A DNA stretch of 35,427 nucleotides from Bordetella parapertussis (GTDB taxonomy: Bacteria; Pseudomonadota; Gammaproteobacteria; Burkholderiales; Burkholderiaceae_E). This document shows, one piece after another, positions 23,157 to 34,330 of this stretch; position 1 is the first letter of the stretch; every line of letters begins with the position of its first letter. Below the pieces are notes generated by a model. It was given only the letters and a program-made list of their open reading frames with translations, did not search any database and was not told the DNA's origin. Position numbers and translations under genes: made by a program. The DNA lies in assembly GCA_945872335.1 (NCBI GenBank), contig CAMBZS010000010.1, forward strand, positions 1 to 35,427. Direction: 5' to 3'.

Positions 23157-24155
23157 TCAGGCCTCGCGCTTGACGAACCGATTGCGCAAAATTCCGATTC
23201 CTTCAACCTCAAGCTCGACCACGTCGCCAGGCTTGAGAAACCGCATCTGTTCGAGTCCGCAACCAGACCCCACGGTACCCGAGCCGAAAAATTCGCCCGA
23301 CACCAGCGTTTCCGAGCGCGAGACATGCGCGATGCAGTCTTCGAACTTCCAGTGCATTTCGCCGCTGTTGCCGCCCCCCCAACGCTCGCCATTGACCCGC
23401 ACCTCCATGGCGAGCCGATACGGGTCAGTGATTTCGTCGGCGGTGACCAGGCAGGGGCCGAGCACATTGCCGGTGTCGAAATCTTTCCCTTTTCCCGGGC
23501 CCAGCTGGCCGGGCATTTCCTTCATCTGCTCGTCACGCGCCGACACGTCGTTGAAGATGGTGTAGCCGAAGATGTGTTGGCGCGCATCGGCCCGGCTGAT
23601 GTCGCGGCCGGGCTTGCCGATGAAGCATCCGAACTCGAGCTCGAAATCGAGCATGGTTGAAAAGGACGGCCACTCGATATCGGTGTCGTGACCGACCACG
23701 TTCAGCCGGTTGGGGTGATAGAAAATGGGTCGTTCGTACCAGGCCTGCGGGATTGCAAGAATGCCCTTGGCTTCCATGTCACGGATGGCCGCAGCGGGGT
23801 CAAGCGTACCGGCTGCACGGACCTTGCGGGCGGTGGAAAACGCCTGCACCAGATGCTTTTCGAAGCAGAGGAAATCGCGCATCTGCGGGGGCTGCGGAAT
23901 GGGCGCCAGCAGCCGTACGTCCTTGCGGGCGACGAGCGCCGCCTTGTAGTGGGTGCGGCGGCCGATGAGGGACCGGGCGAGATCCAGCGCATCATCGCCC
24001 GATTGCGCCATGGCCAGTACGCTCGAAAGCCTGGCCGACGATCGGTCGTGCTGCAGACGATGCGCAGCCTGCAGGTCCAGGACCTTGCGGTCGCCGTCAA
24101 CGAGAACACCAGCGCGGGGCCTGTTTTTTCCGTGTTGGAAGGTCACCAGTTTCAT
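23157..24155 (-). CDS. Fumarylacetoacetate hydrolase family protein
   Basis: 332-residue FAH-superfamily protein, a group covering C-C hydrolases, decarboxylases, hydratases and dehydratases of 2-keto acids. The metal site is visible as E172 and E174 in DFELEFG and D203 in FNDVSARD. KGKDFDTGN (223-230) and SGTVGSGCGLEQM are conserved substrate/metal loops. Start 24155 follows a clear AGGGGA; an upstream in-frame start at 24272 lacks one and lies upstream of the predicted promoter. It is the first gene of the leftward block with SMP-30, Bug and an EthD-like protein. Likely substrate: an acylpyruvate or 2-keto-3-deoxy acid. Not assignable further. Confidence 0.93.
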   Translation of the reverse strand: MKLVTFQHGKNRPRAGVLVDGDRKVLDLQAAHRLQHDRSSARLSSVLAMAQSGDDALDLARSLIGRRTHYKAALVARKDVRLLAPIPQPPQMRDFLCFEKHLVQAFSTARKVRAAGTLDPAAAIRDMEAKGILAIPQAWYERPIFYHPNRLNVVGHDTDIEWPSFSTMLDFELEFGCFIGKPGRDISRADARQHIFGYTIFNDVSARDEQMKEMPGQLGPGKGKDFDTGNVLGPCLVTADEITDPYRLAMEVRVNGERWGGGNSGEMHWKFEDCIAHVSRSETLVSGEFFGSGTVGSGCGLEQMRFLKPGDVVELEVEGIGILRNRFVKREA

Positions 24156-24272: not shown

Positions 24273-24392
24273 GCGTGGCGGCGTTCCGAAATCGCAGTGA
24301 AACCTGGCCGGTTGCAGCGAAAGCGCGGCGGGGTGATGATTCGATCCGCAGGGTCGTCGATTCCGCGGCCCGCATGCTCAGGAGAACATCGC

Positions 24393-25454
24393 ATGAGACC
24401 CAATTCAGCATCGCTGAGGTCGTTGGTTGCCGGAGTCGTCTGCGCGGCCGCGCTGGGGAGTGCCCAGGCTCAGGAGGTGATTCGCCTGCAGGTTGCCGCT
24501 GGCCACCCCCCCATCTTTCTCTGGGTGAAGCACATCAAGGAAAGCCTGATGGCCACGGTGGATGCCGAACTCAAAAAGACCGGCAAATACCGTATCGATT
24601 GGAACGAAAGCTACGGCGGCACGCTGGCCAAGATCGGCTCCGAGCTCGAGACCATGCAGCAGGGGCTTTCCGACATGGGCATCGTCGCTACGGTGTTCCA
24701 GTCGGCCAAGCTGCCGCTCAACAATGTCACGTACTTCGTGCCCTACGGCCCCCCCGACGCCAATATCGTTACGCAGGCCATTGACTATATTCAGGGTTTG
24801 CCCGAGCTCACGGCCGAGTGGACCAAGTACAACACGGTGTATCTGGCCGGGTTTGCCATTGACAACTACGGTGTCGCCAGCAACTTCCCGATCAACCGCC
24901 TGGAAGATCTGAAAGGTCGCAAGATCGGTGGAGCAGGTCCGAACCTCGCATGGTTCCGCGGCACCGGCGCGGTCGGGGTTCAGGGAAGCCTCAACACTTT
25001 CTACAACGACATCAAAACTGGCGTGTACGAGGGCGTGGTTGCGTTTGCCACCTCCGCCGTGCCGGCCAAGCTGTTTGAGGTGGCCCCGCATTACACGGTC
25101 ACCAACATGGGGGCCATGTACGCGGGTGCGGTTGCGATCAACAAAAATCGCTGGGACAAGCTGCCGGATGAGGTCAAGGCGGCCTTTCGGCGCGGCGCCA
25201 ATGCTTACAAAGCCAATTACATTCGTGAGCAGACCGAACGCATCGAGGCCTCGTATGCGGCCTGGCAGAAAGGTGGCGGCAAGGTGAGCCAGCTATCGCC
25301 CGAGGAGCAGATCCGGCTGGTCAAGGCCATGCCCAACCCCACCCGTGACTGGATCAAGCAAGCCGGGCCCAACGGGAAGAAAGTTCTGTCAGCCTACATG
25401 GACTCGGTTCGCGCCACGGGTTACAAGTTCACACGCGATTTCGACAAAGAATAG
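24393..25454 (+). CDS. dctP: TRAP transporter substrate-binding protein (DctP type), second system
   Basis: 353-residue periplasmic receptor. ATG at 24393 follows AGGAGA and gives a proper signal peptide ending at AQA before Q27; the longer frame from 24297 would bury it. The mature start VIRLQVAAGHPP and later MGIVATVFQSAKLPL, DYIQGLPELTAEW match C4-dicarboxylate-receptor-like TRAP proteins. At the position of the usual ligand arginine (LKGxKxR), this protein has LKGRKIGG, so glycine replaces it (G179), implying a different ligand contact from the first system. It heads the eight-gene rightward block. Confidence 0.94.
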   Translation: MRPNSASLRSLVAGVVCAAALGSAQAQEVIRLQVAAGHPPIFLWVKHIKESLMATVDAELKKTGKYRIDWNESYGGTLAKIGSELETMQQGLSDMGIVATVFQSAKLPLNNVTYFVPYGPPDANIVTQAIDYIQGLPELTAEWTKYNTVYLAGFAIDNYGVASNFPINRLEDLKGRKIGGAGPNLAWFRGTGAVGVQGSLNTFYNDIKTGVYEGVVAFATSAVPAKLFEVAPHYTVTNMGAMYAGAVAINKNRWDKLPDEVKAAFRRGANAYKANYIREQTERIEASYAAWQKGGGKVSQLSPEEQIRLVKAMPNPTRDWIKQAGPNGKKVLSAYMDSVRATGYKFTRDFDKE

Positions 25455-25469
25455 CGACCGGGGGGCGTG

Positions 25470-26036
25470 ATGGAATCCGGGCCCAGCCCATCGGCACCGG
25501 CTGAGCCGGCGCCGCTCCATGCAAAGGCGATCGCTTTGCTGTCTGCAATCGGTACCGGATGGATTTTTTTCCTGATGGTGCTGATTCTTATCGATGTGGT
25601 GGGCCGCGGCGCGTTCAATGCGCCGCTGCTCGGTGTGCCGGAAATGGTCCGGTTCTCGATCGTCGGCATCGTGTTCCTGCAACTGCCGCAGACGCTGCGT
25701 ACCGGTGGGCTCACCCGCTCTGACGTGCTGCTTGCGCGCTTGCTCGAGAAGCGGCCGGCGGCAGGCCATCTTCTGCAGGGACTCTTCCATCTGACCGGCA
25801 TGGGTCTGTTTGTGATCCTGTTCGGCACGCTTTGGCCGATCATGATCGAGGCCTTCAAAGCGGGTGATTTCTACGGCTCGGCAGGTCTCATTCAGATTCC
25901 GACCGGACCCCTCTACGTCATCATGCTGATCGGAAGCGGCGCCATGGCGCTTCAGTTTCTGCTCCTTGCCTGGCATGACGCGCAAGTCTCGCTGGGGCGT
26001 GCACAACCCATCACTGCCGGGAGCACCGGAGAATGA
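25470..26036 (+). CDS. dctQ: TRAP transporter small permease subunit (DctQ type), second system
   Basis: 188-residue membrane protein with four helices and a Pro/Ala-rich N-terminus. The first helix ends in ILIDVVGRGAF, then GVPEMVRFSIVGIVFLQ, the conserved DctQ region. It follows dctP by 15 bases. A GTG at 25467 directly before the ATG is an alternative start. The stop overlaps dctM by four bases (ATGA). It pairs with DctM in the inner membrane. Confidence 0.93.
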   Translation: MESGPSPSAPAEPAPLHAKAIALLSAIGTGWIFFLMVLILIDVVGRGAFNAPLLGVPEMVRFSIVGIVFLQLPQTLRTGGLTRSDVLLARLLEKRPAAGHLLQGLFHLTGMGLFVILFGTLWPIMIEAFKAGDFYGSAGLIQIPTGPLYVIMLIGSGAMALQFLLLAWHDAQVSLGRAQPITAGSTGE

Positions 26037-27355
26037 TCGAGCCCACGCTGATCGGACTCGTGTCGGTGGCCATCATGCTGGTGCTGATCTACGCCGGCAT
26101 GCATGTGGGGATCGCGCTGTCGCTCTTGTCATTTGTCGGGGTCTGGATGATTCGCGGTGATGCAACCGTGGCCGCCAACCTCCTTGCGCTTGCCGCATCG
26201 GATGCCATCTCCGACTATGTGTTCGGGGTGGTGCCGCTCTTCGTGCTCATGGGGTTGCTGGTGGCAGTTGCCGACATCGGCAAGGATTCCTTCGAGGTCG
26301 CCAACCAGATCTTCCGCCGGGTGCGGGGCGGCTTGGGCATCGCCACGGTGGCGGCCAATGCAGTGTTCGCAGCCATCACCGGCATCAGCATTGCCTCGGC
26401 AGCGGTCTTCACCAAGGTGGCTGTGCCCGAGATGCTGCGACACGGATACTCTGCCCGATTTGCTGTGGGGGTGGTGGCGGGTTCGTCGGTACTGGGCATG
26501 CTGATACCGCCCAGTCTGCTGCTCATTCTCTACGGCGTGCTCACCGAAAAATCGGTGGGTGACCTGTTCGTGGCCGGCATCATTCCGGGCATTGTGCTCG
26601 CCATCGCTTACTCCATTGGCATTTTGCTCATGGGGCGATTTACCCCGGGCTTTGTGGGCGGACGGATCGTCGCTGGCACCGAGCAGGCCTCGCCACTCAT
26701 GAGCGCGGGCGAGATGGCTGCGCGCATGATGCCGGTCGTCGCCCTGGTGATACTGGTGCTGGGCGGGCTTTACGCCGGGCTGTTCACGCCGACCGAGGCG
26801 GGCGCGGTGGGCGCGGCGGGTGCGCTGGTGCTGGCAATCATCAAGCGCAAGCTGAGCCGGGCGGCGCTCTGGCAGGTGCTGGTTGAAACCGGCCGGATCA
26901 CGGCCTCCATCTGCTTTCTCATCATTGCAGCGCAGCTCTACTCACGCATGCTCGCTGTTTCCGGCGTCACCGAACTGCTTCGCGCGCTCACTGTGAGCAC
27001 CGGGCTGGGCTTTCCGGGTCTGCTCACCATCTTCGTGCTGGTGGTGCTTCTGCTTGGCACGATTCTCGACTCCAGTTCGATCATGCTCATCACCATCCCG
27101 CTGGTGCTGCCCGCGCTGGTGTCATTCAATGTCGACCTCATCTGGTTCGGAATCGTGACGTTGCTGGCGGTTGAAATCGGGCTCCTCACCCCGCCGTTTG
27201 GCATCGCCGTGTTTGTCATCAAGGCAACGCTCGGCAATTCCAGTCCCATCACGCTGAACGACATCTTTGCCGGCGCACTGCCTTTCGCCGCGATCATGCT
27301 GGGGGTGCTGCTGCTGGTGATCGCGTTTCCCTGGCTGGCCACCGCGCTGCTTTGA
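26033..27355 (+). CDS. dctM: TRAP transporter large permease subunit (DctM type), second system
   Basis: 440-residue polytopic membrane protein, same length as the first system's DctM. AAITGISIASAAVFTKV, an IPPSLLLILYGVLTE segment and LTPPFGIAVFVIKA are the family landmarks. It completes a full P-Q-M TRAP system whose genes have 15-base and minus four-base spacing. Downstream, after 37 bases with an AGGAG ribosome site, come cupin and dehydrogenase genes that probably process the imported solute. Confidence 0.95.
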   Translation: MIEPTLIGLVSVAIMLVLIYAGMHVGIALSLLSFVGVWMIRGDATVAANLLALAASDAISDYVFGVVPLFVLMGLLVAVADIGKDSFEVANQIFRRVRGGLGIATVAANAVFAAITGISIASAAVFTKVAVPEMLRHGYSARFAVGVVAGSSVLGMLIPPSLLLILYGVLTEKSVGDLFVAGIIPGIVLAIAYSIGILLMGRFTPGFVGGRIVAGTEQASPLMSAGEMAARMMPVVALVILVLGGLYAGLFTPTEAGAVGAAGALVLAIIKRKLSRAALWQVLVETGRITASICFLIIAAQLYSRMLAVSGVTELLRALTVSTGLGFPGLLTIFVLVVLLLGTILDSSSIMLITIPLVLPALVSFNVDLIWFGIVTLLAVEIGLLTPPFGIAVFVIKATLGNSSPITLNDIFAGALPFAAIMLGVLLLVIAFPWLATALL

Positions 27356-27392: not shown

Positions 27393-28139
27393 ATGGTCTG
27401 GCGAGTTCGCAGGGTTTACACCGGGCACAACAAGCAGGGGCGGGCGGTGATCGTCCAGGACGGTCTGGCGCCCAATGTCAAAGAGATGGCGTCGATGCCA
27501 GGACTCGCGCTGACCGATTTGTGGGAAACCACCGGGCCGCTCGCGAGTAACGAGGGCAATGCCGATGCTGCAGATCGCACCGTCAGGCTCGAACCCCCGC
27601 GAGGCGGCTCCATCCTCCGCATTGTCGAGTTCCCGCCCGACAAGGCCTGGCGTGACAGCGCGGATGCCAAGGCAGCGTTTGAATCGATTGGTGCCGGACA
27701 CGCCAAGGACAAGCAGTCGGCGGACCCGATGATGCACAAGACCAGCACGGTCGACTACATCATTGTGATTTCTGGCGAGATCTACGCGGTGGTGGAAGAG
27801 GGAGAGGTGCTGTTGAAGCCTGGCGATGTTTTCATCCAGCGCGGCACCAACCACTCATGGAGCGTTCGCGGCGATGTGCCCTGTGTGATTGCAGCGGTGC
27901 TGGTGAGTGCGGCGCCGCTCGGCAAACCGGCAGTCAGGAAGAAGCCGGCGGGCAAGCCGGTCGCGACGAAGGCCACGAAGGCGACGAAGGCCGCGAAAGC
28001 GAACAAGGCCACCAAGGTCACCAAGGCGCCGGCGAAACGCGCCACCAAGGCGGCCAAGGCGACCAAGGCGACGAAGGCTACGAAGGCTCCGGTGAAGCGC
28101 GCCGCCAAAGCGGCCAAAAAAGCTGGTCGGGGGCGATGA
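27393..28139 (+). CDS. Cupin protein with C-terminal histone H1-like Lys/Ala-rich tail
   Basis: 248 residues. Residues 1-176 are a complete small cupin: H115 in PMMHKT, D121 in VDYIIV and H154 in GTNHSW are candidate metal ligands, with LLKPGDVFIQRG as the second cupin motif. From residue 177 (base 27921) to the end runs a 72-residue tail of KAT/KAA/KAP repeats. It has 21 lysines, five arginines and no Asp or Glu, like the C-terminal domain of histone H1 and of bacterial H1-like proteins. The cupin domain resembles stand-alone cupins that lack such a tail. The tail might bind nucleic acid, acidic polymer or an acidic partner. AGGAG precedes the ATG. The next gene starts on the base after its stop codon. 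Confidence 0.88.
   Translation: MVWRVRRVYTGHNKQGRAVIVQDGLAPNVKEMASMPGLALTDLWETTGPLASNEGNADAADRTVRLEPPRGGSILRIVEFPPDKAWRDSADAKAAFESIGAGHAKDKQSADPMMHKTSTVDYIIVISGEIYAVVEEGEVLLKPGDVFIQRGTNHSWSVRGDVPCVIAAVLVSAAPLGKPAVRKKPAGKPVATKATKATKAAKANKATKVTKAPAKRATKAAKATKATKATKAPVKRAAKAAKKAGRGR
27966..28127 (+). repeat. Degenerate 9-base tandem repeats coding for Thr-Lys-Ala tail
   Basis: About 18 units of roughly nine bases, of type ACGAAGGCC with ACC/GCG/AAC and AAA variants, encode the basic tail. Codons are mixed, so the peptide pattern is better kept than the DNA pattern. Confidence 0.75.
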
Positions 28140-29030
28140 ATGGCCATGAAGCCGATCGGATTCGTGGGCCTGGGCAACATGGGCGGGCGGATGACGCGCC
28201 GGCTGGTGGCGGGTGGGCTGAGTGTGCTGGGTTTCGACGTGCGCGTCGGGCAGGCTGAGCAGTGCGGCGCGATGCCCGCGTCATCGATCGCGCAGATCGC
28301 AGAGACCTGTGACCTGATCCTGCTGTCGCTGCCTGACAGCCATGCGGTGGAGGCGGTGGTGGAGGGCGATGCCGGTCTGCTTTCGCATTGCCGGCCTGGG
28401 CAGACCATCGTCGATCTGTCCACGGCGGCGCCGCGCTCCACGCGCCGGCTTGCCGCGCTGTTTGCGGACCGCGGCGCAGTACTGGTCGACGCAGGAATTT
28501 CGGGCGGCGCGGCAGCCGCCGACAAGGGCACCCTCACGCTCATGATCGGCGGCCCCGCTGGTGTAGACAGCTTGCTTGATCCAGTATTCCGGCATTTCGC
28601 CGCCAAGGTGGTTCACATGGGCGAAACCGGTAATGGCCATGCCACCAAACTGCTCAATAATTTTCTGAACGCCGTCACGCTTGCAGCGACCGCCGAGGTC
28701 ATGGTCGCCGGCCGCAAGGCGGGGTTGGACCTTCAGCAACTTCTCGATGTGATCAACAGCAGCAGCGGGGTGAACTTTGCAAGTCTCAACCGCTTTCCCC
28801 ATATCATTCGGGGCAACTATCTGGAAGGCGGACTCACCGGCAAGCTTATGACCAAAGATATCGTGCTCTACGCTGAAATGGCGAGCGAGTTGGGCATCGC
28901 CTCGCTCAACGCAGCCGGTCCCCTGGCAAGCTTTGGTCTTGGAACGGCGCTGGGCTATGGGGACCAGATCAGTAATCGGGTGGTCGACGCGATCGGTGAC
29001 GCCAGTGGCGGTGTCCGGGTGAGCCGCTGA
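28140..29030 (+). CDS. NAD(P)-dependent beta-hydroxyacid dehydrogenase (3-hydroxyisobutyrate dehydrogenase family)
   Basis: 296 residues, the usual length. The N-terminal Rossmann motif is GLGNMG (10-15). The substrate-binding motif is DAGISGG (117-123), a variant of DxPVSGG. The catalytic lysine is K170 in GHATKLLNN, and K238 in LMTKDIVL matches the second conserved lysine. It oxidises a beta-hydroxyacid or reduces a semialdehyde such as tartronate semialdehyde. The ATG follows the cupin stop directly; a second in-frame ATG at 28146 is possible. A paralogue is encoded on the opposite strand at 30811-31704. Confidence 0.93.
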   Translation: MAMKPIGFVGLGNMGGRMTRRLVAGGLSVLGFDVRVGQAEQCGAMPASSIAQIAETCDLILLSLPDSHAVEAVVEGDAGLLSHCRPGQTIVDLSTAAPRSTRRLAALFADRGAVLVDAGISGGAAAADKGTLTLMIGGPAGVDSLLDPVFRHFAAKVVHMGETGNGHATKLLNNFLNAVTLAATAEVMVAGRKAGLDLQQLLDVINSSSGVNFASLNRFPHIIRGNYLEGGLTGKLMTKDIVLYAEMASELGIASLNAAGPLASFGLGTALGYGDQISNRVVDAIGDASGGVRVSR

Positions 29031-29061
29031 CCTTCGTTTTGATGTTTTTCAGGAGATCGCA

Positions 29062-29445
29062 ATGAAAGTGATGCATGCGCGCCAGGAAGGCGCCAGTTCG
29101 GAAATGCGGGACGCCACCTTTACGGGCGGCGTGTGGGGCGACCCGGTGATGCCCTTTACCCAGGGTGTCCAGATCAACAACGTGTTTTTCTCGCCAGGCG
29201 CCCGTACGCACTGGCATCAGCATGAAGTGGGACAGGTGCTGCATGTGGTGGGCGGAAGCGGCTGGGTCTGCGAAGACGGCCACGAACCCCAGCGCATCCG
29301 GACCGGCGATGTCGTCTGGATCGGACCGGGCGAGCGCCACTGGCATGGCGCAGATACGAACAGTTTCATGATGCACCTGGCCATTTCCATCGGCAAAACC
29401 GACTGGAAAGAGGCGGTCACCGACGCCCAGTATGTGAAGGGCTGA
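29062..29445 (+). CDS. Small single-domain cupin protein
   Basis: 127-residue cupin with both motifs intact. Motif 1 is ARTHWHQHEVGQVL, with H52, H54 and Q58 as likely metal ligands; motif 2 is PGERHWHGA, with H93. This arrangement (HxH, Gln, HWHGA) is seen in cupins encoded with carboxymuconolactone decarboxylase-like genes. It has no basic tail, unlike the two other cupins in the block. CAGGAGA precedes the ATG. Probable role: metal-dependent isomerase or oxygenase on a small acid; unproven. Confidence 0.9.
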   Translation: MKVMHARQEGASSEMRDATFTGGVWGDPVMPFTQGVQINNVFFSPGARTHWHQHEVGQVLHVVGGSGWVCEDGHEPQRIRTGDVVWIGPGERHWHGADTNSFMMHLAISIGKTDWKEAVTDAQYVKG

Positions 29446-29462
29446 ACCCGAAAGGAATGCCG

Positions 29463-30185
29463 ATGTCTGCCTCATCGCAGAAAAGAACCGTGCTGGTCTC
29501 AGGCGCCTCGGCGGGCATCGGCCGGGCCTGTGCGCTGATGCTCGCCCGTCGCGGCAACACCGTGATTGCGATGGGGCGGCGTCTGGATGCGCTGCAGTCG
29601 CTTGCCAGCGAGGCGCCCGCGGGGTCGATTGAAGTGCTCGCTGGCGATCTCAATGACAAGGCCTATCTCGATCAGGCCGATGGCCACTTTGCCCGCTGCG
29701 ACGTGTTCATCAACAACGCGGGCGTGTTGCGTTACGCGCCGCTCATGGATCTGTCCGACGATGATATTGCCTGGATGTTCCAGACCAACGTCATGGCGGC
29801 GGTGCAACTCACCCGCCGCGTGGCCCGGCATATGGTGGCCAGGCAGTCTGGCCATATTGTGTTCATGACCTCCATCGCTGCGCGCGAGGTGTACCGGCTG
29901 GCCTCGGGTTACTGCGCCACCAAGCACGCGCTCTCTGCATTTGCGCGCTCGTTCCGGCTCGAATTGCAAGGCTTTGGCATCAAGGTCACCGAAGTGGCAC
30001 CCGGTATGGTCGACACCAACATCCGCGAGGGGAGTGACCACCCTGCGGTGGTTGCCGCCATGCAGGCCCGCCGCTTTTCGCCGCTTACCTCGGATGAGGT
30101 GGCGAGCGCGGTGGCCTATGCGCTTGAATCCACGCCCAACCTCTGTCCCGACCTCATCGAACTGAGGCCGCTGGGCTCTGTCTGA
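29463..30185 (+). CDS. SDR family oxidoreductase
   Basis: 240-residue classical SDR. SGASAGIG (13-20), NNAG (84-87), S137, Y150 and K154 (YCATK) are all present, and GRR after beta-2 (38-40) suggests NADP(H). Start at 29463 is chosen over an ATG at 29457 because AAAGGA ends immediately before 29457 but lies seven bases from 29463. It follows the small cupin by 17 bases and precedes the tailed cupin by 21. It probably carries out a redox step on the TRAP-imported compound. Confidence 0.92.
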   Translation: MSASSQKRTVLVSGASAGIGRACALMLARRGNTVIAMGRRLDALQSLASEAPAGSIEVLAGDLNDKAYLDQADGHFARCDVFINNAGVLRYAPLMDLSDDDIAWMFQTNVMAAVQLTRRVARHMVARQSGHIVFMTSIAAREVYRLASGYCATKHALSAFARSFRLELQGFGIKVTEVAPGMVDTNIREGSDHPAVVAAMQARRFSPLTSDEVASAVAYALESTPNLCPDLIELRPLGSV

Positions 30186-30206
30186 CGTTTTCCCGGAGAT
30201 CCTCCC

Positions 30207-30797
30207 ATGGCCACTGCAGCCAAGGCCGCCCGCAAGGCGGCTGCGAAGAAACCCGCGGCGAAGAAAGCCGCTGCAAAAAAACCTGCGGTCACAAGTCGGG
30301 CGGCCAGCAAGCCCGCAGCAAAGCGCGGCGCTGCACCGAAGCCCGCCGCCAAGAAGCCCGCCGCCAAGAAGCCCGCCGCGCTACCCACCCTGAAGGTACC
30401 TGCGGTCACCCGCTGGAAGCCGCAGAAATTCATGGCGGCTCACGCGGGCGACAAAGGTCAGCAGTTCCGTAAAGGCCTTCGTTCCTATGCCTCGTACCGC
30501 GATTTGGGGATCAGCAAGGCAACCGGTGGCGTGGTTCAGGCGCATGTCATTCGACTGCACGGCCCATGCGATCCGGCGTTGGTGTCGATCCGTCATCTTC
30601 ATGGCGTCCAGTTCCAGTTCCTGTATATGCTCAAGGGCTGGATGGAAGGCGAATACAACGGCCGTCGCGAGCGCTTCGAGGCCGGCGCCTGCTGGATCCA
30701 GCCCAATTCGATCCCGCATACGGTGCTCGATTATTCCGACGACTGCGAGATGATCGAACTGATCCTGCCGGGCACCTTCGAGACCCGCGAGCTCTGA
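30207..30797 (+). CDS. Cupin protein with N-terminal histone H1-like Lys/Ala/Pro-rich tail
   Basis: 196 residues. Residues 1-59 form an AAKKPAAKK-type basic region with 15 lysines and three arginines and no acidic residue. From about residue 70 a complete cupin follows: H130 and H132 in IRHLHGVQFQF, H171 in IPHTVLDY. GGAG eight bases before the ATG makes translation of the basic region likely. An internal ATG at 30432 (residue 76), just before the cupin, could give a tail-free form. The cupin is not closely related to the other tailed one, and the tail sits at the opposite end, so the two tails were probably acquired separately. Last gene of the rightward block. Confidence 0.88.
   Translation: MATAAKAARKAAAKKPAAKKAAAKKPAVTSRAASKPAAKRGAAPKPAAKKPAAKKPAALPTLKVPAVTRWKPQKFMAAHAGDKGQQFRKGLRSYASYRDLGISKATGGVVQAHVIRLHGPCDPALVSIRHLHGVQFQFLYMLKGWMEGEYNGRRERFEAGACWIQPNSIPHTVLDYSDDCEMIELILPGTFETREL
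30339..30380 (+). repeat. 15-base tandem repeat in basic tail
   Basis: AAGCCCGCCGCCAAG occurs twice perfectly (30339-30353, 30354-30368) with a partial third copy to 30380. It encodes KPAAK units. Perfect identity suggests recent expansion by slippage. Confidence 0.8.
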
Positions 30798-30810: not shown

Positions 30811-31704
30811 TCAATCCTTGGCTGGTTTGATCACCACGCCCATTCTGGCCTCCACAAACTGGGCGATTCGCGTGAAGTCGTGGGGGCCGCCATACACCTC
30901 ATTGGTTTGCCGCCAGATTTCATGCACGGCGTCTGCCACCGGCATGGTGGCGCCCAGACCCGCGGCCTCGCGCATGCACAGATCGACATCCTTGAACATC
31001 AGCGCGGTGGCAAAGCCGAAGTCGAAGGTTCGCGGCAGCACCGCCTTCGGAAATTTGTCGCGGCTCGCGGTATTCATGCCGCTCCCCGCGTTGATCACGT
31101 CGATCATGATTTTGGGGTCCAGCCCGGCTTTGACCCCCATCGCCACGGCCTCCGAGGTGATGGCCATCGACGCTGCCGAGACCAGATTGTTGGCAAGCTT
31201 CATGGTTTGCGCCATGCCTGGCTCGGCGCCAATGTAGAAGAGCTTGCCGATATGCCGCAGCACGTCGGACAGGCGGTCAAAGCTTGCCTGCGGCCCGGAG
31301 ACCATCACCGCGAGCGTGCCCTTGATCGCGCCGTTTCGCCCGCCTGAAACCGGCGAATCAATGAACTCGATCCCCCGAGCAGCGAGCGCAGCCTGAACCG
31401 ACCGCGCCATCGAGGTGCCGGTCGTGGAGAGGTCCACCACGGTTCGCACCGTCTTGCCGTGAATCAATCCCGTGGCCGAGGTGCACACGTCGTTGACGAT
31501 CTGCGGGGTGGGAAGCGAAAGGAGCACTGTGTCCACCTGGTCGCCCACCTCGCGCACGGATGCGGCGAGCTTCACGCCGCGGGCGGCCAAGGCCTGGGCG
31601 GCAGCAGGGTTGACATCAAACACCATCAAGGTGTGCCCGGCATCGAGCAGGCGCTCGGCCATGGGGACACCCATGGCTCCCAATCCGATGAAGCCCAGAT
31701 TCAT
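30811..31704 (-). CDS. NAD(P)-dependent beta-hydroxyacid dehydrogenase (3-hydroxyisobutyrate dehydrogenase family)
   Basis: 297-residue paralogue of the enzyme at 28140-29030. GLGAMG (7-12), DSPVSGG (116-122, the full consensus here), K169 in MKLANNL and a KD motif in LMFKDVDL are present. ATG at 31704 has GGAG upstream; the longer frame to 31767 has no ribosome site. It converges with the tailed cupin across only 13 bases, leaving no room for a separate terminator, and diverges from the CoA ligase gene. It would oxidise a beta-hydroxyacid or reduce a semialdehyde; whether it shares a substrate with the other copy is unknown. Confidence 0.94.
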
Positions 31705-31837
31705 TGCAATCTCCGAGATGTGTGGCTGACCCGGTCGGTCATCGCCGATCAGTCCGAAGGATCGCACCGGATCCGCCCCTTGAGAAGCCAGCGATCCGAA
31801 AGTGATTCCGTTATGGCCGCGCAGCGCCAGGTTTGCC

Positions 31838-31843
31838 TATACT
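31838..31843 (+). promoter_or_regulatory. Candidate -10 element of the CoA ligase block
   Basis: TATACT lies 37 bases before the ligase ATG at 31880. No good -35 is present at normal spacing. Transcription starting near 31850 would exclude the alternative GTG start at 31802. The rest of the 175-base divergent gap shows no other clear element. Confidence 0.3.
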
Positions 31844-31879
31844 TGCCGCGCCCCAGTTGGGGTGTCGCCCGACCCGATC

Positions 31880-33475
31880 ATGCAAAAGCCTGCCCCGCCC
31901 GAACTGGCTCCAAAGAGCCTGACCATCCCCGCGCTGGTTGCCGAGATGGCGAACCGCTATCCGGATCGCGAAGCGGTGGTGGGTGCCCATCACCGCTTCA
32001 CCTACCAGGGTATCGAGCGGGCGGTGAACCAGGCGGCGTCGTTTCTGTTGCAGGCGGGTATCCGCAAGGGCGACAAGGTAGCCGTTCTGATGGGCAACCT
32101 GCCCGAGTGGATCATTGCCGACTTTGCAATCACCTCGATTGGTGCGGTGATGGTGGCGGTCAACACCTGGGTGACCGCACGGGAACTCGCCTATGTGCTC
32201 GAGCATTCCGACACACGACTGCTCATCACCACCGGCCGGTTTTTGCGCCATGATTACCGCGCAATGATCGACGAACTGCGAGCCGAGTCCCGACTGCCTC
32301 AACTCGAGCGCGTGCTGGTGGTGGGCGACGATGTGCGCGATGGCGATCTGCGCTGGACCGATGCGATGCGCGAGCCCGATCCCGCCGCTGCGTCCCGGCT
32401 GAACGAAGCGCGGGCAGCCGTCAGGCCCGACGATCCGGCCTACATCCTCTACACCTCGGGCTCTACCGCGCTGCCCAAAGGCGTGGTGATTCAGCACCGG
32501 GGGCTGGTCGAAAACATGTGGAGAATCGGCCAGCGCCAGCACGTCACGCATCATGACCGCCTGTGGCTGGCCGTCTCGCTCTTCTGGGGGTTGGGTTGCG
32601 AAAACGCGCTCTTCAACCTCTATACCCATGGTGGCTGCATCGTGCTGCAGGAAAGCTTTGACGCCGAGGAGGCGCTGCAGTTGATCGAGCGTGAGCGCTG
32701 CACGATGTTCTATGGCACGCCCAATATGGCCGAGGCACTCCTCAGCACGCCCGGTTATCGGCGAGAGCGGCTTCGCACCATGCGGGGCGGGGCCACGATC
32801 GGCACGCCGGATCAGATCCGACGGCTGATCGATGCCGGCCTCACCGAGATCTGCAACATCTACGGGCTCACTGAAACCTATGGCAACTGCTCGGTCACTG
32901 ACGCGGCTGACGATCTGGCGCTGCGGCTTGAAAGCATCGGCCAGCCACTCGCGGGCTTCGATATCCGGGTGATCGACAGCAGCTCCGGACTGGAGTGCGC
33001 ACCCGGGGACATCGGAGAAATTCGCGTCAAGGGCCACGTGCTCAAGGAGTACTACAAGGACCCCGAGCGCACCCGCGAAGCCTTTGATGAGCGCGGCTAC
33101 TTCCGCACGGGCGATCTCGGGCTGTTCGGGCCCACCGGGCACCTTTATTTCCGGGGTCGGATCAAGGAAATGATCAAGACCGGTGGCATGAATGTGTCGC
33201 CTGTTGAGGTGGAGCAGGTGCTCACCGGGCACCCCGGCGTGATGGCCGCCTATTGTGTGCCGCTCCCTGATCCCGAGCTCGATGAAGTCTTTGGCGCGGT
33301 GGTGGTGCCCAAGCATGGGGCGATCATCGATCTCGAGGCGGTGCGGGCTTTGTGCGCCCGCGAATTGGCCCGCTACAAGCGACCGAAACAGTTTCTGGTG
33401 ATTGAAGAGCGTGACCTGCCGCTCACCATCACGGGCAAGGTGCGCAAAGACGATTTGATCCGTCGCTTCACGTAA
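31880..33475 (+). CDS. AMP-dependent synthetase/CoA ligase
   Basis: 531-residue ANL-superfamily acyl/aryl-CoA synthetase, activating a carboxylic acid through an acyl-adenylate. The P-loop YTSGSTALPKG is at 191-201, IYGLTET (327-333) is motif A5, YFRTGDLG is A7, GRIKEMIKTGGMNVSP is the hinge/A8 region, and the C-terminal TGKVRK gives the adenylation lysine. Start 31880 is used because it lies just downstream of a TATACT box and before the conserved N-terminus; no strong ribosome site is visible. It is the first gene of the block with MBL, SCP2-like and hydrolase genes. Substrate is unknown, probably a medium-chain or aromatic acid. Confidence 0.92.
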   Translation: MQKPAPPELAPKSLTIPALVAEMANRYPDREAVVGAHHRFTYQGIERAVNQAASFLLQAGIRKGDKVAVLMGNLPEWIIADFAITSIGAVMVAVNTWVTARELAYVLEHSDTRLLITTGRFLRHDYRAMIDELRAESRLPQLERVLVVGDDVRDGDLRWTDAMREPDPAAASRLNEARAAVRPDDPAYILYTSGSTALPKGVVIQHRGLVENMWRIGQRQHVTHHDRLWLAVSLFWGLGCENALFNLYTHGGCIVLQESFDAEEALQLIERERCTMFYGTPNMAEALLSTPGYRRERLRTMRGGATIGTPDQIRRLIDAGLTEICNIYGLTETYGNCSVTDAADDLALRLESIGQPLAGFDIRVIDSSSGLECAPGDIGEIRVKGHVLKEYYKDPERTREAFDERGYFRTGDLGLFGPTGHLYFRGRIKEMIKTGGMNVSPVEVEQVLTGHPGVMAAYCVPLPDPELDEVFGAVVVPKHGAIIDLEAVRALCARELARYKRPKQFLVIEERDLPLTITGKVRKDDLIRRFT

Positions 33476-33529: not shown

Positions 33530-34330
33530 ATGACACTCCCCACCTACGAAATCTACGCGGTCAAGTACGCGCACCACGACCGCAGTTCGCGCGACAACTT
33601 TGTGGGCGGGGACAGTCATGACGTGCCCATGCCGCTCGATTATTTCGTCTGGGCGATCCGGGGGGGCGGCCGCACCTGGGTGCTGGACACCGGGTTTTCC
33701 GAAGAGGTCGCCAGGCAGCGCGGGCGCGATTTTCTCCGCTGCCCCGGACAGGGGTTGTCACTGCTCGGCATCGATCCTGAGTCGGTGAGCGACGTGATCA
33801 TCTCGCATATGCATTACGACCATGCAGGCAATGCTCAGCTCTTTCGGCGGGCGCGCTATCACCTGCAGGACCGCGAGATGCAGTTCGCAACTGGGCGCTG
33901 CATGTGTTTCAAGCCCATGCGGTTTCCGTTTGACGTGAATGACGTGAAAGCCATGGTGGACCGGGTGTTCGAGGACCGTGTGTGCTTTCACGATGGTGAC
34001 GATGAAATTGCACCGGGTATCACGCTCCACCGGGTGGGCGGGCACACGATGGGATTACAGGTGGTGCGCGTGCACACCCGCCGCGGCTGGGTGGTGCTTG
34101 CGAGCGATGCCTCGCATTTTTATGCCAACATCGAATCCGATCGGCCGTTTCCGCTCATCTACAACCAGGCCGACATGCATGAAGCCTATCGACGCGTGTA
34201 TTCGCTTGCCAGTTCGCCGGCGCATGTCATCCCTGGCCACGATCCGCTGGTCATGAAGCGCTATCCGGCGCCCAGCGATGCGCTGCGCGGTATTGCGGTG
34301 AGGCTGGATGCCGATCCGATCGCCGACTGA
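33530..34330 (+). CDS. Metallo-beta-lactamase-fold hydrolase (N-acyl homoserine lactonase-like)
   Basis: 266-residue MBL-fold enzyme. The binuclear metal site is complete: H93, H95, D97 and H98 in SHMHYDHAG, H172 in GGHTMG, D193 in ASDASHFY and H237 in IPGHDP. DTGFSEE and the arrangement of the last two motifs resemble AHL lactonases and related lactone or thioester hydrolases. In this catabolic block a lactonase or thioesterase for a pathway intermediate is more likely than quorum quenching. GGAGA precedes the ATG, 54 bases after the ligase stop. No signal peptide. Confidence 0.9.
   Translation: MTLPTYEIYAVKYAHHDRSSRDNFVGGDSHDVPMPLDYFVWAIRGGGRTWVLDTGFSEEVARQRGRDFLRCPGQGLSLLGIDPESVSDVIISHMHYDHAGNAQLFRRARYHLQDREMQFATGRCMCFKPMRFPFDVNDVKAMVDRVFEDRVCFHDGDDEIAPGITLHRVGGHTMGLQVVRVHTRRGWVVLASDASHFYANIESDRPFPLIYNQADMHEAYRRVYSLASSPAHVIPGHDPLVMKRYPAPSDALRGIAVRLDADPIAD

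Follow-up and report, generated by a model that had tools for sequence, protein, structure and literature searches.

The 35,427-nucleotide contig CAMBZS010000010.1 of Bordetella parapertussis (GenBank assembly GCA_945872335.1), analysed whole and hereafter called the window, encodes two small cupin proteins that each carry a long polycationic tail rich in lysine and alanine, at the C-terminus in cupin A (27393-28139) and at the N-terminus in cupin B (30207-30797). The operon joins two modules that have had separate histories, one comprising an FAH-family hydrolase, a tripartite ATP-independent periplasmic (TRAP) transporter and cupin A, and the other a dehydrogenase, an untailed cupin, a short-chain dehydrogenase/reductase (SDR) and cupin B. 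Judged by sequence and gene order, the two tails are independent of each other and not parts of one two-enzyme system. We propose, with about an even chance of being right, that they are disordered polycations that were gained independently, are kept for their composition and loosely tether each enzyme to a polyanion.

Two Acid-Free Tails on Cupin Domains

Cupin A comprises 248 residues and passes the cut-off for Pfam Cupin_2 (PF07883; 30.9 bits vs. 27.2) at residues 109-168. The 70 residues after residue 178 (72 if a preceding GK is counted) have a net charge of +25 and contain neither Asp nor Glu. Cupin B (196 residues) begins with a 62-residue stretch containing 18 Lys and Arg and no acidic residue (charge +18), followed by a domain at 126-175 that is a borderline Cupin_2 match, scoring 25.0 bits against the cut-off of 27.2 as a whole protein and 27.3 when read in frame with its neighbours. 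A first-pass annotation of this DNA had described two acid-free, histone H1-like tails separated by an untailed cupin, and this description stands: both open reading frames (ORFs) are as it gave them, the tails measured here at 70-72 and 62 residues are both long K/A-rich acid-free terminal stretches and the middle cupin (29062-29445) has none. Both likewise have the long, acid-poor terminal repeat rich in K, A and P (or T) that typifies H1-like tails of the AlgP/PhaF type, with disorder predicted for cupin A only.

The tails are real in-frame protein-coding features. Both cupin starts are preceded by a Shine-Dalgarno-like GGAG at normal spacing, and the K/A-rich reading stays in the same frame in relatives despite differing repeats. 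When the tail DNA of the window is read in the third frame, 15 (A) and 7 (B) acidic residues appear, and none in the second frame of either; across nine tails checked, the corresponding ranges are 3 to 15 and 0 to 4. Because the second frame is also nearly acid-free, this control rests mainly on one frame. Among 412 greedily called ORFs in the window and 20 further stretches of 20 kb (400 kb of a 3.88-Mb genome, 91% complete in 323 contigs, designated G000 with the window as its contig C10), only three had a 30-residue end lacking Asp and Glu and rich in Lys and Arg, namely cupin A, cupin B and RpoD, so within the sampled DNA such tails are rare.

Gene Order Uncouples the Tails

Relatives were taken from 150 related genomes and from a scan of named genomes that gave 16 close cupin A loci with 57-96% identity to the window's protein (L117, L118, L120, L123 and L125 are the same records as genomes G001, G002, G075, G066 and G124). 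In the window, DctP-DctQ-DctM, cupin A, a 3-hydroxyisobutyrate-dehydrogenase-like gene, the untailed cupin, an SDR and cupin B all run in one direction. A divergent FAH-family hydrolase gene flanks this run on one side; on the downstream side lie a second dehydrogenase-like gene, on the opposite strand, and genes for an acyl-CoA ligase and a lactonase-like protein:

23157..24155, minus strand: FAH-family hydrolase (PF01557, by Pfam), conserved partner of cupin A, with an FAH-family match in each of the 16 named loci
24297..25454, plus strand: TRAP transporter solute-binding protein DctP (domain search)
25467..26036, plus strand: TRAP transporter DctQ (domain search)
26033..27355, plus strand: TRAP transporter DctM (domain search)
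27393..27926, plus strand: cupin A folded domain, 178 residues; closest solved structures 3es1 and StrC (8x0u)
27927..28139, plus strand: cupin A C-terminal polycationic tail, 70 residues and stop; 9- and 18-bp coding repeats; predicted disordered
28140..29030, plus strand: 3-hydroxyisobutyrate-dehydrogenase-like protein (PF03446, PF14833), opening the second module (Pfam, synteny)
29062..29445, plus strand: untailed cupin, (R)-mandelonitrile-lyase-like, below the NCBIfam cut-off (129.1 of 140 bits)
29457..30185, plus strand: SDR (domain search)
30207..30392, plus strand: cupin B N-terminal polycationic tail, 62 residues; 15-bp coding repeats
30393..30797, plus strand: cupin B folded domain, 134 residues; closest solved structure 2o8q (hypothetical protein)
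30811..31707, minus strand: second 3-hydroxyisobutyrate-dehydrogenase-like protein, syntenic with the second module
31802..33475, plus strand: AMP-binding acyl-CoA ligase, second module
33530..34330, plus strand: metallo-beta-lactamase-fold (lactonase-like) protein, second module

The two modules are joined only in G000 and in G001, which has the window's arrangement. In G002, FAH, TRAP and cupin A share a contig, and the second module, cupin B included, lies on a different one; directly after its cupin A lies a broken, truncated dehydrogenase-like copy (L118:6583-7157, plus strand), with an intact copy on another contig. G004 (98% complete) carries the second module, including a tailed cupin B, and a close cupin A was not found in that genome (39% identity for the match with the best E-value, and at most 48% for any). 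Eight further named loci with a tailed cupin A (L119-L125, L129) have no cupin B within the 6 to 20 kb examined. In genome G572, of which 3.6 kb were examined, cupin A comes after TRAP genes, and the 1.5 kb behind it contain no gene of the second module. Cupin B has no match in G066, and its best match in G124 is untailed.

The first-pass annotation had asked whether the tails co-vary across genomes and had suggested that they share a purpose within one operon, bringing both enzymes to the same site or condensate. Synteny shows no such co-variation, the tailed cupins do not occur jointly across genomes and coupling of both tails in one operon is rejected. In favour of a shared purpose one may cite the single co-directional run in G000 and G001 and the remnant of the second module's first gene behind cupin A in G002, which makes an older joint arrangement possible. 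Against this stand G004, whose tailed cupin B lacks a close cupin A counterpart, the eight tailed cupin A loci without cupin B in the DNA examined, and the different spread of the tails, that of cupin B being seen only in the window's genus and that of cupin A spanning families. We consider a purpose shared at the operon level very unlikely.

The Cupin A Tail Varies in Sequence and Length

Of the 51 cupin A matches found in the 150 related genomes at E<=1e-10, 30 were read as loci; all six close ones (70-100% identity) are tailed and all 24 distant ones (<50%) are untailed. Ten of the 16 named loci are tailed, all labelled Betaproteobacteria, Burkholderiales or Burkholderiaceae. The six untailed loci come from Polaromonas, another betaproteobacterium, Roseiarcaceae, Hyphomicrobiales, Emcibacter and Sphingosinicella (four alpha- and two betaproteobacterial); they are 57-69% identical to the window's protein and some lie in the same gene context. 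Cupin A of G572 (72% identity) has an 89-residue tail, and that of G609 (L170), identical in coding sequence to L122, was counted once. This gives 18 distinct close members, 12 tailed (the window, ten named loci and G572) and 6 untailed. Wider searches, with the window's genome included, found cupin A in 4 of 369 genomes of the class (E<=1e-30), 9 of 399 of the order and 2 of 398 of the phylum (both E<=1e-55); beyond the matches in G000, G075, G124, G572 and G609, the 12 further loci read from these searches (38-49% identity) have no K-rich tail. All 16 named loci have FAH-family genes, and seven of them, among these the untailed alphaproteobacterial L127 and L128, also have TRAP genes, so the cupin A module has a wider distribution than the tail. 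A second cupin of the cupin A family (43-46% identity) adjoins the FAH gene at L118:1169-1669, L127:4537-5064 and L128:4566-5084 (all minus strand), and the G002 copy of it (L038) is untailed.

The 12 tails range from 14 to 89 residues, measure 70, 59 and 39 residues in sister species and contain no Asp or Glu. Summed over the 11 that were measured, 472 residues include no acidic residue and carry a net charge of +184, with +9 to +25 per tail. The repeat units differ, from KAT in the window's genus to AAKK/APAKK (L120), AVAKK (L123) and GKPAAKK (L125), and the tails of L121 and L129 are short and K-rich. The net charge of the full-length proteins falls into two separate ranges, +10 to +23 in 11 tailed members versus -3 to -13 in the six untailed ones, and the domains of those 11 tailed members have a charge of -5 to +2 without the tail. 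From these comparisons, the tail appears to be kept for charge in a group of betaproteobacterial cupins, with composition rather than sequence conserved.

The tails could instead be near-neutral extensions, produced by slippage of 9- to 18-bp GC-rich repeats that lengthen ORF ends and tolerated without function. Tandem repeats do underlie both tails, lengths vary between sister species, some relatives are untailed and similar stretches are found on unrelated proteins. Slippage accounts poorly for the total lack of Asp and Glu across 11 homologues with unlike repeats, for the short K-rich tails of L121 and L129, for the two separate charge ranges and for the rarity of such ends in the stretches sampled from the genome (3 of 412 ORFs). 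We judge this explanation unlikely, though it deserves serious weight.

The Cupin B Tail Is Seen in One Genus

Thirty of the listed cupin B matches in the 150 related genomes were read as loci. The N-terminal tail is present in all four close homologues, that is, the window and three members of its genus (domain identity 94-99%), with lengths of 62, 82, 77 and 44 residues and 0, 1, 2 and 0 acidic residues, respectively. The other 26 homologues (42-54% identity) have no K-rich, acid-poor stretch in 40 in-frame upstream residues, and among 74 family genomes searched there is no close cupin B outside the genus, the best elsewhere being 53-54% identical. The C-terminus of one distant relative (L067, in G082) is a short basic segment, AKRARKRRR, possibly a separate gain at the opposite end. 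Capture of the cupin B tail from the genome's own SWIB gene was rejected: the local DNA alignment score of 58 lies below the mean of 500 synonymous-codon shuffles (69.3, standard deviation 11.7; 421 of 500 reached the observed score), thus giving no sign of recent DNA transfer from that gene.

The two tails look to have been gained separately, because they differ in the end of the protein, in cupin family and in phylogenetic spread; here the first-pass annotation was right. Its concern that homologues might usually prove tail-less is not borne out in close relatives, of which 12 of 18 (cupin A) and four of four (cupin B) are tailed. The tail might also act on its own protein, through solubility, oligomer contacts or an acidic protein partner, and not on nucleic acid. 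Cupin A domains are mostly neutral to acidic, which makes contacts between tail and domain possible, but the folded domain of cupin B is slightly basic (+3), and we regard this alternative as distinctly improbable.

The Cupins Are Probably Enzymes

In the AlphaFold2 model of cupin A the core adopts the cupin fold with moderate confidence (mean pLDDT 68), and the tail is predicted to be disordered, with means of 37-49 per ten-residue block from residue 181 and nearly all of residues 187-246 below 50. A fold search of this model against a library of PDB structures returned 3es1 (unknown function) and StrC (8x0u) as nearest, the same pair as found by sequence; the best StrC chain aligned over most of the domain (E 8.6e-11, TM 0.67 by target, 22% identity). 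The candidate metal ligands H115, D121 and H154, which we take to have that role, are invariant in 17 of 17 aligned family members, and cupin A is for this reason probably an enzyme. Both cupins are probably small metal-type cupins that serve as enzymes of two neighbouring catabolic modules.

Cupin folds are also found in ligand-sensing regulators, and the window's cupins could be DNA-bound sensors that control the operon and hold on to DNA through their tails. The H1-like tails of AlgP and MLDS do bind DNA. No further Pfam domain was found in the cupins, and hence no known sequence-specific DNA-binding domain; the apparent metal ligands are retained, and untailed L127 and L128 keep the same gene context. 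Such a sensor seems extremely unlikely.

Similar Tails in Related Bacteria

Used as a protein query against the whole genome at E<=10, the cupin A tail matched only itself, and DNA patterns were therefore used instead. A DNA word for KA[A/T]KA[A/T]KA occurs in 29 of the 150 related genomes; carriers read include RecA, RpoD (N-terminal), RimP, a phasin, a DUF1232 protein and, twice, argininosuccinate synthase (C-terminal tail), with the limits that some of these stretches (RecA's among them) contain acidic residues and that several matches are in other frames or protein-internal. The word for KKPAAKKPA occurs in 72 of 150. Thirty of its loci comprise 14 H1-like proteins, called by a WPFPTG or WPFPTS end, 8 SWIB-like proteins (two of the eight Pfam-confirmed, as is that of G000), 4 other short K/A-rich ORFs, 2 RsfS, 1 DNA topoisomerase and 1 cupin B. 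A free-standing H1-like protein from G004 gives an HC2 match of 55.5 bits. Such tails are common in the lineage, mostly on families that, judging by their names, are DNA-, ribosome- or storage-granule-related and occasionally on metabolic enzymes. The first-pass annotation's suggestion of an undescribed two-enzyme system is not upheld, given that the tails are independent and this type of tail is not special to this operon.

Several carriers may be recorded in their own right. Argininosuccinate synthase has a C-terminal KAT/KAA-rich tail at L090:106-1722 (minus strand; G009; one Asp) and L106:1452-2825 (minus strand; G060), and the ribosomal silencing factor RsfS a long C-terminal AAKKP-rich tail at L179:1491-2141 (minus strand) and L180:961-1626 (plus strand). 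The window's own genome encodes on contig C13 (L141:12246-15344, plus strand) an RpoD with an extension of ~420 residues ahead of region 1.1, K/A-rich over at least 251 residues read; L093 is a second extended RpoD by Pfam, and L095, L105 and L110 look alike. All eight other genomes searched contain the WPFPTG word that belongs to the free-standing H1-like protein, and G000 (91% complete) lacks it.

Proposed Tethering by Charge

We propose that each cupin would have acquired its own disordered lysine/alanine-rich tail, which, attached to a near-neutral domain, may bind polyanions weakly and without specificity, by charge. Tethering of this kind would concentrate or slow an otherwise soluble enzyme, each tail serving its own enzyme and not a joint device. 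The preferred partner may be ribosomes or RNA, followed by DNA and polyphosphate. A +25 green fluorescent protein (GFP) in Escherichia coli is slowed, probably by binding mainly ribosomes, and does not co-localize with DNA (PMC5726854); the C-terminal KPAA region of AlgP is required for granule spacing, and KPAA peptides bind DNA (PMC9239181); and the lysine-rich C-terminus of MLDS binds DNA, a Lys to Glu change abolishing binding (PMC5504291). We rank ribosomes and RNA first because the GFP was slowed, probably by ribosomes, and did not co-localize with DNA, and DNA is kept in view by the AlgP and MLDS tails; by this analogy, binding to ribosomes or RNA is the most likely.

Several observations weigh against tethering by tails kept for charge. 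The tail is dispensable in the cupin A family, as six close homologues lack it (e.g., Polaromonas L126, 69% identity), and the untailed L127 and L128 share the FAH-TRAP context. The cupin A tree is poorly resolved, with four tail-state changes, and a single tailed clade is not rejected (p-AU 0.197); clustering of the tail on the 17-row tree is not clear either (as few changes sufficed in 95 of 500 shuffles), and one origin versus several is neither shown nor rejected. The cupin B tails of G001 and G004 contain one and two acidic residues, the second frame of the tail DNA is nearly acid-free too, and triplet slippage alone can yield K/A-rich acid-free stretches.

If the tails tether catabolic enzymes to ribosomes, nucleoid or polyphosphate, they would represent a simple charge-based organization of bacterial metabolism. 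The cupin A family provides a natural series for this question, with its graded tail lengths and tail-less homologues. A bolder and rather doubtful extension is that Burkholderiales possess a general polycationic address tag, grafted repeatedly at either end onto soluble metabolic enzymes, selected for net charge and not for sequence, and placing them on ribosomes or another polyanion. Metabolism would then be spatially organized by charge alone, with two cupin families, argininosuccinate synthase and perhaps others as carriers.

Comparison with Known Systems

Narrow literature searches gave nothing and wider ones only the analogues cited here, with subscription literature mostly outside their scope. 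Dps resembles the cupins in having flexible tails at either end and is reported to be an oligomeric enzyme whose tails bind DNA; its fold and chemistry differ from those of cupins. Dps tails are also shorter than the cupin tails. Actinobacterial topoisomerase I is likewise an enzyme with a lysine-rich C-terminal extension (PMC7398561), but its substrate is DNA, whereas the cupins have no known nucleic acid substrate. The closest solved relatives of the cupin A domain, StrC (8x0u) and 3es1, are 22-30% identical to it in the fold alignment. The free-standing H1-like (HC2/BpH1 type) and SWIB proteins of related genomes have a start, MATAKKAAKKPAAKK, that resembles that of cupin B, MATAAKAARKAAAKKPAAKK, at the protein level; in contrast to them, the cupin B tail is fused to a cupin fold, and neither full-length cupin matched HC2 (PF07382), with Cupin_2 the only match at E<=0.001. 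AlgP, PhaF and phasin tails are disordered K/A/P-rich repeats of variable number on a folded domain (PMC9239181), as are the cupin tails. These proteins organize granules or the nucleoid, whereas the folded part of the window's proteins is a small catabolic-type cupin. What the window contains is thus a known, H1-like type of tail, here on enzymes not usually thought to need one.

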